Source: Candidatus Ornithospirochaeta stercoripullorum (GTDB taxonomy: Bacteria; Spirochaetota; Spirochaetia; Sphaerochaetales; Sphaerochaetaceae). From it: DNA of 41,618 nt. The notes beneath the pieces were generated by a model, which did not search any database, was not told the DNA's origin, and saw nothing but the letters and a program-made list of their open reading frames with translations. Made by a program: the position numbers and the translations under genes. The stretch is taken from contig JADIMT010000055.1 in assembly GCA_017694595.1 (NCBI GenBank), positions 1-41,618 on the forward strand, in the 5' to 3' direction. Position 1 is the first letter of the stretch; each line of letters opens with the position of its first letter. Positions 28,473 to 32,477 of this stretch are shown here, piece by piece.

Positions 28473-30204
28473 TTACTCTACATCCTGTAGAGCTGCATAG
28501 TCCTCTTCACCGGTTCTCACTTTGACAACCTTGGTGACATTGTAGACGAAGATCTTTCCATCTCCGATATGTCCTGTATATAGTGCTTTCTTCGCCGCTT
28601 CTATCACTGAATCCACAGGTATCTTGCTGACAACGACTTCTACCTTTACTTTTGGAATCAGGTTGACATCAAGTTCAGCTCCACGGTATCGCTCTCCAGC
28701 GCCTTTCTGTATGCAGCATTCCATCACCTGAGTCATTGTGATTCCTGTGACTCCGAGGCGGTTGAGCGCGGTCTTCAGAGCGTCAAAGCGCGAAAGACGG
28801 CAGATGATGGAAACCTTGTGCATCCCTGTATCATAAACACCATCGACGATAGTCTTTTTGTTAACGACTTTTATCGCAGCATCCGTCTCCGCTTTTGAAG
28901 CCTTGTCATAGTCCTCTTCACCAAGATCCGTGTTTTCATTGATTTCCATATCAAGGGCTGAGACATCGCTGATTGCGAATCCAGAGTATGCAGAAGCAAG
29001 TCCATGCTCATGCATATCAAGGCCATCAATCTCTACTTCCTTGGAAACTCTGAGACCGACAGCTTTATCAATCAGTTTGAAGACTATGAACATTACTATC
29101 AATACATAAGCTGCAACTGATACAATTCCAAGAAGCTGTATGCCCAGCTGACCAAAGCCACCACCGTAGAATAGGCCAGGCGCAACACCATTGCCGCCAT
29201 CGCTGAAAAGTCCTACAGCTATAGTTCCCCATATGCCATTTACCATGTGTACGGAAATCGCACCTACTGGATCATCAATCTTCACGACTTTATCAAAGAA
29301 TTCAACGAAAAGAACAACGAGAACTCCCGCTACAAAACCAATGAAGAATGCACCTACCGGAGTTACGCAGTCACATGGCGCTGTGATAGCCACAAGGCCT
29401 GCAAGTGCTGCGTTGAATGTCATTGATACATCAGGTTTGCCATAACGAATCCATGTGAAAACCATTGCAATGACAGTCGCAATTGCAGCTGCGAGATTTG
29501 TATTGAACATGACAAGAGAACCGAGAATCATGTCCTCATCCGTAGACATTGCGACGGTCGAACCACCATTGAATCCAAACCAGCAGAACCAGAGGATGAA
29601 AACACCCAAAGCCATAGCTGTCATATTATGTCCCGGAATAGCCCGTGGCTTGCCGTTTTTGTCATACTTTCCGATGCGAGGTCCAAGAAGCGCGGCACCA
29701 AGACATGCTGTGAGTCCTCCGACCATATGAACGCATGTAGAACCTGCAAAATCATGGAAATTCAGAGATGAAAGCCATCCACCTCCCCAAATCCAATGGC
29801 CTGAGATAGAGTAGATAACCAAACTGATTGCAGCGCTGTAGAGGCAATAAGCCTTGAAATTCGTGCGTTCCGCCATTGAGCCGGAGACAATTGTTGCCGC
29901 TGTGGCACAGAATACTGTCTGGAAGATTGCATAGCACCAGATTGGAAGCGTGCCGAAATCATAGTTTCCTCTGATAAGAGGATCAAAACCACCTATTAGC
30001 GGCCCAGAGCCTGCAAACATGATTCCGAACCCGATAAGCCAGAAGCATGGAGCACCGATACAGAAATCCATCATGTTCTTCATGAGTATGTTTCCTGTAT
30101 TCTTTGCACGTGTAAGTTCAGCTTCGCAAAGCGCGAATCCAGCTTGCATGAAAAAGACAAGAATTGCTGCAACAAGAGTCCATTACATCCGTCGCTGAAT
30201 ACAT
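28473..30204 (-). CDS. amt: Ammonium transporter fused to a C-terminal PII domain, frameshifted near the start
   Basis: The continuous frame covers 28473-30149 (558 codons, from MQAGFALCE), but this begins inside the first membrane segment. Upstream in the same frame come codons for WTLVAAILVFF, then TAA. A good start (ATG 30204, strong GGGGAGG ribosome site) reads MYSATDV and joins WTLVAAILVFF only if one extra base near 30183 is skipped (or two missing bases restored). The frame-corrected protein has about 576 residues. The Amt body has GHWIWGGGWLS and ends near residue 400 after a linker; the last 115 residues are a full PII domain with the T-loop ERYRGAE (modifiable Tyr) and B-loop TGHIGDGKIFV. 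A true mutation, sequencing error or recoding cannot be told apart here. Confidence 0.87.
30180..30186 (-). other. Frameshift position in amt
   Basis: From ATG 30204 seven codons (to 30184) are in a frame one base off from the rest of the gene, which resumes with TGG at 30182. The single base at 30183 is the simplest insertion. There is no homopolymer at the site. Confidence 0.75.
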
Positions 30205-30299: not shown

Positions 30300-30326
30300 A
30301 AAAAACGCCTTGGTATCCCAAAGCGT
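30300..30326 (-). terminator. Leader terminator 1 upstream of amt
   Basis: On the minus strand a 9-bp stem (30318-30326 with 30305-30313, one G-U) with a 4-base loop, followed by six T, one C and five T. It lies about 10 bases after the predicted start of a promoter at 30343-30371. Confidence 0.8.
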
Positions 30327-30342
30327 CTTTGCTTATATTCTC

Positions 30343-30453: not shown

Positions 30454-31038
30454 TCAGTGACTTAGATTCATGAAGCTTTTGACAGGAATGCTGAAAAGGA
30501 TGCCCATGCCACGCTTTTTTAGTATATCCATGCTGTTGATGGCGTTTATGATAGGCTGAGCCTTCTCACTGGGAACAACTATCATTAGTATTTCTTTTTC
30601 AGGAACCAGCGGGGAACCGAAGAACTTCACATCATCTTCAGTGCTTGTGCCATGTGCGTTTATGACAGTGCCTCCGCCAGCACCTGCTTTTCTAGCAGTT
30701 GCCATAATCTCTTCGCTGTATCCATCTTCAGTGATGACTTCTATAAGTGTCCAGCCTGAATCCATTGTTTCAACCTCCGTGTCGATAATCATGGCAATGC
30801 CCTTTGCCTGTACAACTTTTATGCTTTTGAGGACATCATCTACAATTGTGTTATCCATCACGCTGACCAGTACTTCTTGCTTTGTATCTCCCAATCCCAA
30901 AGCTGCAAGGATGGTTCGTGTTGCTGTGCCACGTGCATTGCATACTGTACCTCCTGGTGCACCTGCCTTTCTGGCTGCTGCCATTATATGTTTCGCTTCG
31001 CCTCTCTGTACTACAGAGATCAACGTGCTTCTGTTCAT
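30454..31038 (-). CDS. Tandem PII-family protein linked to DUF1538
   Basis: A 194-residue soluble protein made of two PII-like halves. Each contains the repeated motif: HIMAAARKAGAPGGTVCNARG (about residue 17-37) and EIMATARKAGAGGGTVINAHG (about 109-129), each followed by a strand pattern like LVSVMD or LMIVVP. Classical PII proteins are single-domain trimers that bind ATP/ADP and 2-oxoglutarate and regulate partners through the T-loop; here the Tyr-containing T-loop motif is absent. It overlaps the upstream DUF1538 gene by ATGA and has a GGGGG-type ribosome site, so it is probably the dedicated regulator of that membrane protein. Confidence 0.85.
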   Translation of the reverse strand: MNRSTLISVVQRGEAKHIMAAARKAGAPGGTVCNARGTATRTILAALGLGDTKQEVLVSVMDNTIVDDVLKSIKVVQAKGIAMIIDTEVETMDSGWTLIEVITEDGYSEEIMATARKAGAGGGTVINAHGTSTEDDVKFFGSPLVPEKEILMIVVPSEKAQPIINAINSMDILKKRGMGILFSIPVKSFMNLSH

Positions 31039-32477
31039 AAGTTCCCCCTTTGAGTTGTCTTGATTCTGTAGATTATGCCGAGAATCTCGATGAGAAGAAT
31101 TGGCATCATAGCTATCATGGCTATCATTCCGAATGACGAAGAGAGCGTCGCTCCATCTGTCCCGGAAGCGGCTCCAATGGCAATCGGCAAGAGGAATGCT
31201 GAGCTCATAGGACCAGTTGCAACTCCTCCTGAGTCAAATGCGATGGCCGAGAACAATCCCGGAGTCCAGATCATAAGGATGATTATAAGCGCATAGCCTG
31301 GGAGAAGAAACATCCAGATAGGAAGATTGTAGACAGTGCGGATTAGAGAAAGCACTACTGCTAAAGCAACTCCAAGCGCTAGTGTTGCCAGCATTACTTT
31401 CCGGCTTATTCTACCACTGCTCACTTCTTCGACTTGTTCTGTAAGGACAATGACAGCCGGTTCTGCAAGCACAACTGAAAGGCCGAATAGGAAAGCAGCG
31501 CCATAGAGCAGGAATTGGTTTATGCTTATCAAAGCTTCTCCGAGATTCCTGGCAACTGATGAGAAAGAGTAGTCAACTCCTGTGAAGAAGAGCACTATCC
31601 CGAGATATGCATAAACTACACCGATTGCTTCCCTGATAGCCTCTGTCTTTGGTGTCTTCAGAACAAAAAACTGCATTAGGAGGCATACAACGACAAGAGG
31701 TAGAAGCGAGAAACCTGTCTCCTTTAACTTTATTAGAAGCAGGTTGATAAACGGAATGACATCTGTCTCAGCTGCCATTTCCTGGGCAGTTGCGTTTCCG
31801 CCTGTGACAAGGCCGAAGATGAGCACGAAGAGCACAGGCCCGACGGATGAGATAGCGACATAGCCGAAGTCTGCTTCGCTGTTGTGCTTCCGCATCGATG
31901 CGACACCCATGCCGAGTGCCATGATGAAGGGAACGGAAAGCGGTCCTGTGGTCGCCCCTCCTGAATCGAAGCCAATGGAGATGAAGAAATCATCAGAGAA
32001 GATAGAGAGTGCAAATAGCAACGCATAGCAGATGAACATCACTGTTTTCATGGACCATGAAAGCACTGTACGAGATAGCGATATAGCGAAGAAAAGGCCC
32101 ACGCCCAGTGCTATTGCTAGCACTAATGGTGTTGTAGGTGTTCCTGGACTGGCTGCATGTACCTCTGATGCCAGTACTTGCACATCTGGTTCAGGTAGGG
32201 TGATGATGACACCTAGTACGAAAGCTGCTATGAGCATCGTGATAAGCGATCTGCTCTTTGTCAGTGCAGAACCTATCCTCCCTCCGATTGGAGTGATTCC
32301 GATTTCTACACCTGTGAGAAAGATTGTAAGACCAATTATAACTAGGAAGCATGAAAGAAGAAATCGTAAGACTCCATGGCCATCCATGACTCCTGTTATG
32401 AGGGAGAGCACAAGTGTTAAAGCACCAATGGGCAGTACTGACAATGATGTCTCTTTAAGCTGTCTTACTATATTCAT
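31035..32477 (-). CDS. DUF1538 domain membrane protein, probable transporter
   Basis: A 480-residue membrane protein with two homologous DUF1538 halves. Matching motifs recur: TGVEIGITPIGGRIG versus TGVDYSFSSVARNLG, and GFDSGGATTGPLSVPF versus AFDSGGVATGPMSSAF. The conserved Asp and Gly-rich FDSGG motifs in both halves suggest an inverted or parallel two-fold transporter with an ion or substrate site; the substrate is unknown. It is the first gene of a two-gene unit with the tandem-PII protein, which implies nitrogen- or energy-linked regulation of transport. No Shine-Dalgarno precedes ATG 32477; TATAAG lies 15 bases upstream. Confidence 0.85.
   Translation of the reverse strand: MNIVRQLKETSLSVLPIGALTLVLSLITGVMDGHGVLRFLLSCFLVIIGLTIFLTGVEIGITPIGGRIGSALTKSRSLITMLIAAFVLGVIITLPEPDVQVLASEVHAASPGTPTTPLVLAIALGVGLFFAISLSRTVLSWSMKTVMFICYALLFALSIFSDDFFISIGFDSGGATTGPLSVPFIMALGMGVASMRKHNSEADFGYVAISSVGPVLFVLIFGLVTGGNATAQEMAAETDVIPFINLLLIKLKETGFSLLPLVVVCLLMQFFVLKTPKTEAIREAIGVVYAYLGIVLFFTGVDYSFSSVARNLGEALISINQFLLYGAAFLFGLSVVLAEPAVIVLTEQVEEVSSGRISRKVMLATLALGVALAVVLSLIRTVYNLPIWMFLLPGYALIIILMIWTPGLFSAIAFDSGGVATGPMSSAFLLPIAIGAASGTDGATLSSSFGMIAMIAMMPILLIEILGIIYRIKTTQRGNL

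Follow-up and report, generated by a model that had tools for sequence, protein, structure and literature searches.

A DUF1538 membrane protein encoded together with a double-PII protein in a gut spirochaete: a candidate cation/proton antiporter with a proposed dedicated regulator

The stretch of DNA analyzed here (the window) comprises 41,618 nucleotides from Candidatus Ornithospirochaeta stercoripullorum (Spirochaetota; GenBank assembly GCA_017694595.1, contig JADIMT010000055.1). On its minus strand, a gene for a DUF1538 membrane protein is followed by one for a protein with two PII domains. The two reading frames overlap by 4 nt in an ATGA sequence, as the initial annotation reported, and the overlap suggests that the genes are translationally coupled. 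A terminator-like hairpin separates the pair from an Amt ammonium transporter gene, although the number of such sites in the region is no higher than in shuffled sequences. The features are as follows.

31035..32477, minus strand: DUF1538 membrane protein gene (480 aa; two PF07556 repeats; AF2 pLDDT 89.0, pTM 0.88)
31785..32477, minus strand: DUF1538 half 1, UmpA-like, predicted N-in/C-out (NF041627 UmpA 90.7 bits vs. UmpB 70.0; loop charges; conservation)
31956..31970, minus strand: FDSGG motif of half 1, residues 170-174 (sequence; D171 in 61/61)
31038..31778, minus strand: DUF1538 half 2, UmpB-like, predicted N-out/C-in (NF041628 UmpB 72.5 bits vs. UmpA 70.5; loop charges; conservation)
31224..31238, minus strand: FDSGG motif of half 2, residues 414-418 (sequence; D415 in 61/61)
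31035..31038, minus strand: ATGA overlap of the DUF1538 stop and the PII start, 4 nt (sequence)
30454..31038, minus strand: double-PII protein gene (194 aa; PF00543 45.1 bits in two stretches; AF2 pLDDT 89.5, pTM 0.85)
30769..31032, minus strand: PII domain 1 (N-half), with a degenerate B-loop region, less conserved (profile, alignment, conservation)
30943..30969, minus strand: KAGAPGGTV motif of PII domain 1 (sequence)
30463..30753, minus strand: PII domain 2 (C-half), GGT nearly invariant, PEKE conserved (profile, fold comparison, conservation)
30664..30690, minus strand: KAGAGGGTV motif of PII domain 2 (sequence; T124 in 72/72)
30301..30330, minus strand: terminator-like hairpin 3' of the PII gene and before the Amt-PII gene (13-pair stem with a T tail)
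28473..30149, minus strand: Amt ammonium transporter gene with a fused canonical PII domain (28506-28823), a separate unit outside the module

An Rfam search of the region gave no match, no relatives of the pair were found in the viral contigs searched, and a sequence search of solved structures matched neither protein. We found no description of a DUF1538-PII association in open PubMed Central papers, an absence that is not proof, and nothing relevant there on tandem or double PII proteins; the annotation of the genes is itself public. The Amt-PII gene is a separate gene behind the hairpin and is no evidence about the DUF1538-PII module. The three PII domains that had been noted close together, including that of Amt-PII, are nonetheless all present, and no others were found in the genome assembly (83% complete). 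The start of the Amt-PII gene seems to be frameshifted (30126-30204, minus strand), with MYSATDVM in one frame and WTLVAAILVFFMQAGFALC next in another, which points to a genuine change of one base or to a mistake in the assembly.

The membrane protein matches PF07556 with two domains (387.6 bits, cut-off 22.6, E 1.4e-116), and its halves align with one another at 31% identity across 211 residues (E 2e-23), with an FDSGG motif in each, in agreement with the two matching halves first described. Among 61 homologs, E96, P97, and D171 in half 1 and E339, P340, and D415 in half 2 are invariant, D98 is present in half 1 only, and an Arg is nearly invariant. In each half, the invariant Glu-Pro and Asp motif would sit at helix breaks and probably binds the ions. 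Lys and Arg residues were counted per loop over the same 61 homologs, with loop boundaries set by hand from the model. Counts in half 1 were high at the N-terminus (2.4) and in loops 2-3 (2.6), 4-5 (2.1), and 6-7 (2.0), and low in loops 1-2, 3-4, and 5-6. The pattern is reversed in half 2, with high counts in loops 8-9 (2.4) and 10-11 (2.1) and at the C-terminus (3.9), a low count in loop 13-14 (0.15), and intermediate values (1.1-1.2) in loops 9-10 and 11-12; loop 12-13, predicted to lie inside, has just 0.5 and is uninformative for topology. By the positive-inside rule, this charge pattern indicates seven helices per half, with the two halves predicted to be inverted in the membrane.

The only characterized DUF1538 pair, UmpA and UmpB of Halomonas zhaodongensis, forms a heterodimer that carries out Na+(Li+,K+)/H+ antiport when both proteins are present, and not with either singly (PMC5484666). 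With an antiporter demonstrated in the family, the initial description of the substrate as unknown was not borne out. Each Ump subunit has seven helices, UmpA being the counterpart of half 1 and UmpB that of half 2 of the fused window protein, but UmpA and UmpB are encoded by two separate genes. Half 1 favors the UmpA model, whereas half 2 only barely favors that of UmpB. At the level of sequence, the window protein is homologous to UmpA/UmpB and is not assigned as the same protein, and antiport by it would be expected from these relatives.

It is fairly unlikely, in our estimation, that the UmpAB assignment cannot be transferred and that the substrate of the module is none of Na+, Li+, and K+ but, for instance, a different cation, an organic acid, or bicarbonate. 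Such a reading draws on the existence of just one characterized pair and on equivalog scores that lie far under their cut-offs (UmpA, NF041627, 148.1 bits, cut-off 490; UmpB, NF041628, 128.3 bits, cut-off 500). In addition, no solved structure confidently resembles the DUF1538 model: a fold search with the AF2 model returned nothing at E 0.001, NCX_Mj, of the NCX/CaCA fold, aligned over 173 residues at a level below that meaningful for helical proteins (Z 5.8, rmsd 5.4), and the similarity to UlaA was weak. Against this, both halves match the UmpA and UmpB profiles across almost their whole length, the acidic motifs are invariant and the Arg nearly so, oadB adjoins some of the loci, and DUF1538 is listed among pH-adaptation genes in a machine-learning study (PMC13255231).

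The downstream protein matches P-II (PF00543) in two stretches: the full protein reaches 45.1 bits (cut-off 25), the C-half alone passes the cut-off (31 bits), and the N-half alone falls below it (18.1 bits). Hence, the assignment of the N-domain to PII rests on its similarity to the C-domain, the structural model, and the family profile. The halves are 32% identical (E 7e-13), their KAGAPGGTV and KAGAGGGTV motifs are spaced 93 residues apart, and the AF2 model shows two ferredoxin-like PII folds, to the second of which solved PII chains fit with Z of about 9-10 and rmsd of about 2-3 over 85-95 residues. The proposal of two PII-like halves with a repeated KAGAxGGTV motif is thus upheld. Of the two outcomes named initially as refuting, assignment of the 194-residue protein to another fold and absence of co-occurrence of the pair, neither was seen. 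DUF2179 and HisG_C were considered as identities and rejected, scoring more weakly than P-II and under their cut-offs; the score for the PG0541 family (NF045581) was 18.2 bits, below its cut-off of 45.

The Amt-fused PII of the window, which retains TGHIGDGKIFV and the T-loop Tyr, provides a local canonical reference. Compared with it, both domains of the double-PII protein lack the T-loop Tyr (as the initial annotation had pointed out), the GDGK B-loop, and the C-terminal Arg segment, and the T-loop is shorter. In place of the canonical GlnB/GlnK B-loop TGxxGDGKIF, domain 2 has KKRGMGILFSIPV and domain 1 is without the loop, while the C-terminal Arg of the GlnB/GlnK ATP site is absent from both. 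With these elements lost, canonical ATP/2-oxoglutarate sensing appears unlikely, although other nucleotides may be sensed. In the C-domain, the GGT residues are nearly invariant (G122 in 72/72, G123 in 71/72, T124 in 72/72) and PEKE is conserved (E147 and K148 in 70/72), whereas each GGT residue of the N-domain is kept in 40-42/72. By analogy with the PII-like proteins SbtB and DarA/PstA, the likeliest ligand would be cyclic di-AMP or an adenine nucleotide. DarA/PstA, to which PMC6516651 gives a lead, are cyclic di-AMP PII-like proteins that have the PII fold in a single domain with a large B-loop, and this nucleotide has ties to the balance of potassium and sodium. No DarA/PstA profile match was seen for the window PII protein. 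The genome itself encodes a cyclic di-AMP cyclase domain, which makes this nucleotide available; such cyclases are common, and hence this is not specific evidence for the ligand.

Loss of the canonical nucleotide and 2-oxoglutarate motifs, a degenerate N-domain (GGT residues in about 40/72), and a nearly obligatory pairing could also be expected if the double PII were no ligand-driven switch but a permanent part of the transporter, with a role in its structure or assembly. We consider this unlikely, given that the conservation of GGT (71-72/72) and PEKE in the C-domain is as expected of a working pocket, that UmpAB is active without PII (PMC5484666), and that three DUF1538 genes stand alone.

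GTDB genomes were scanned for relatives, and the best 80 of 579 were analyzed, a selection biased to the subtype of the window. Two PII domains lie directly downstream on the same strand in 80/80 of these DUF1538 loci (best 80 of 579), which belong to spirochaetes, Clostridia, and Desulfovibrio relatives. Within this set of the best 80 of 579, the PII domain sequence starts a median of 20.5 nt after the stop of DUF1538, and the PII domains are encoded by two separate adjacent genes in nine of the 80 (e.g., Christensenella L037 and Mobilisporobacter L078). Of the claims made initially, the coupling of DUF1538 to a double PII is supported, in a pair conserved over several phyla; the statement on the substrate is not supported, and that on symmetry is disfavored. 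Across 100 relatives of the window's genome, both proteins were found in 55, DUF1538 only in 4, PII only in 4, and neither in 37 (Fisher P = 2e-18, a value that overstates independence as the genomes are akin). The four DUF1538-only genomes are all of a long subtype with a divergent PII protein, and one of the four PII-only cases (G030) is at a contig edge. DUF1538 genes without a nearby PII occur in spirochaete loci L119, L122, and L153. Flanking genes are mostly heterogeneous, which marks the DUF1538-PII pair as the conserved unit, and, beyond LuxS and a biotin ligase, those of loci L032-L111 offered no common clue to the substrate.

A subunit of the Na+-pumping decarboxylase, oadB, is encoded beside the DUF1538-PII pair in five same-genus loci (G002:C46, G010:C5, G017:C3, G027:C80, and G008:C46), upstream in four and downstream in one. 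Separately, oadB is immediately followed by a double PII of divergent sequence in L141 (4048-6134), L142 (4004-6070), and L143 (4105-6196), all on the minus strand. The oadB of L141 matches PF03977 (E 1e-136), and no DUF1538 was found in the fetched regions of these three loci, where either DUF1538 was lost or PII switched partner. A lone PII (L144, 3954-4322, plus strand; 123-residue frame) groups with the C-halves; the region fetched around it contains no DUF1538. Together, the oadB-linked double PII of these three relatives and the lone C-type PII away from DUF1538 lend something to the idea that the PII protein targets another partner and is merely co-expressed with DUF1538. We regard this as improbable, as the linkage is kept over phyla despite changing flanks and in fused, split, and triple forms, and as the oadB-linked double PII has diverged.

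The number of PII domains per DUF1538 locus varies from one to three. At the lower end, alphaproteobacterial plasmid loci of two species only, Methylocystis (L136) and Chelativorans (L137), have DUF1538 split into a pair of genes, after which comes one gene for a single PII that bears the annotation P-II family nitrogen regulator; the first Chelativorans DUF1538 gene is short, at 273 nt as annotated. At the upper end, spirochaetes have DUF1538 frames of ~550-920 residues, followed by mutually matching frames that are mostly ~360-490 residues long. The proteins encoded after these long DUF1538 frames (L020, L023, L146-L149, L189-L208, L215, and L218) have as many as three PII-like domains, which are barely recognized or missed by Pfam. 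Three PII domains, each with E < 0.002, score in L196, L200, L206, L207, and L208, and only one or two score in others. A tree of 274 PII domains separates N-halves and first separate genes from C-halves, second separate genes, and single domains (support 0.76), with the Amt outgroup alone left with the N group. Hence, the domain duplication predates the split of the sampled lineages, and fusion or fission came later.

This range of copy numbers bears on the earlier suggestion that the two-fold symmetry of the PII halves matches the DUF1538 repeat, which is disfavored by both the loop charges of the 61 homologs and the PII number of one to three. Inverted halves would give a pseudo-two-fold axis in the membrane plane and a cytoplasmic face without two equal copies. 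A symmetric 1:1 complex is therefore very improbable: both proteins of the common form do have two repeats, but only one face of each oppositely oriented half is cytosolic, and there are also DUF1538 proteins of two repeats paired with three PII domains, and a split pair with one.

Our preferred reading, to which we assign a probability of roughly 0.6, is that the double PII is a ligand-responsive regulator dedicated to a cation/proton antiporter, the two forming one self-contained transporter-plus-regulator module. The membrane protein would exchange monovalent cations for protons as a fusion of the UmpA-UmpB type, its two seven-helix halves being inverted, and the double PII a dedicated cytosolic regulator that binds its cytoplasmic face. 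A small ligand on the PII domains, sensed in a manner other than that of GlnB and with an adenine nucleotide or cyclic di-AMP as candidate, would then change antiporter activity. The binding of PII to the antiporter, the direction of control, and the ligand are points that we infer only. Counting for the module are the 80/80 pairing (best 80 of 579), the series of one, two, and three PII domains, the PII fold, antiport by UmpAB, oadB beside five related loci, and the listing of DUF1538 among pH-adaptation genes; counting against it are equivalog scores below cut-off, the PII-less loci L119, L122, and L153, one of the two DUF1538 genes of L067, and the oadB-linked double PII in three relatives. 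A further point against is that UmpAB functions in E. coli as two membrane genes alone, so that its activity in that host does not require PII; in the UmpAB paper, neither P-II nor a nitrogen regulator was found to be mentioned (PMC5484666).

Inhibition of a transporter by a PII protein that binds it directly is known from AmtB-GlnK and SbtA-SbtB (reviewed in PMC10710835). AmtB-GlnK likewise has a transporter gene linked to a PII gene, with PII binding the cytoplasmic face, although GlnK is canonical (T-loop Tyr and GDGK B-loop). SbtA-SbtB resembles the module in joining a Na+-coupled transporter to a PII-like regulator (PMC10710835), but SbtB is a single-domain protein that sits as a trimer on a trimeric transporter, whereas the module has two domains (one or three in relatives) and another transporter family. 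A passage in PMC7726332, citing Sant'Anna 2009, links PII-NG to CzcABC antiporters. This is again a PII-like protein linked to a transporter, as is the NCBIfam PG0541 family; for PII-NG, the partner is a proton/cation antiporter. CzcABC is an RND-type metal efflux pump and PII-NG has a single PII domain, which sets both apart from the window module. New relative to known PII-gated transporters would be the transporter family, the concatenation of PII, and probably a non-trimeric partner. We tentatively suggest, as a possibility that is itself doubtful, that PII domains joined in a single polypeptide (a pair, or a trio acting as a pseudo-trimer) control a non-trimeric, inverted-repeat antiporter and thereby set sodium, potassium, and pH balance via a non-GlnB ligand.

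If the module reading is correct, a widespread and unstudied PII branch would keep protons and monovalent cations in balance, so that ion homeostasis in gut spirochaetes, Clostridia, and other bacteria would respond to metabolic or nucleotide signals. Control by PII has been regarded as restricted to trimeric transporters, and, UmpAB being a heterodimer, the module is a direct test of that rule. The occurrence of one, two (fused or separate), or three PII domains on one transporter family is a natural experiment in PII stoichiometry, and many uncharacterized "P-II family nitrogen regulator" annotations would gain a probable role outside nitrogen control.

Two neighbors recur among loci L032-L111, in patterns that may reflect relatedness: on the upstream side, 13 of 54 tested neighbors are LuxS, and on the downstream side, 7 of 48 have a biotin/lipoate ligase domain. 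At another locus (L067, 3687-7485, plus strand), two DUF1538 genes flank one double-PII gene, leaving one of them without a PII directly behind.
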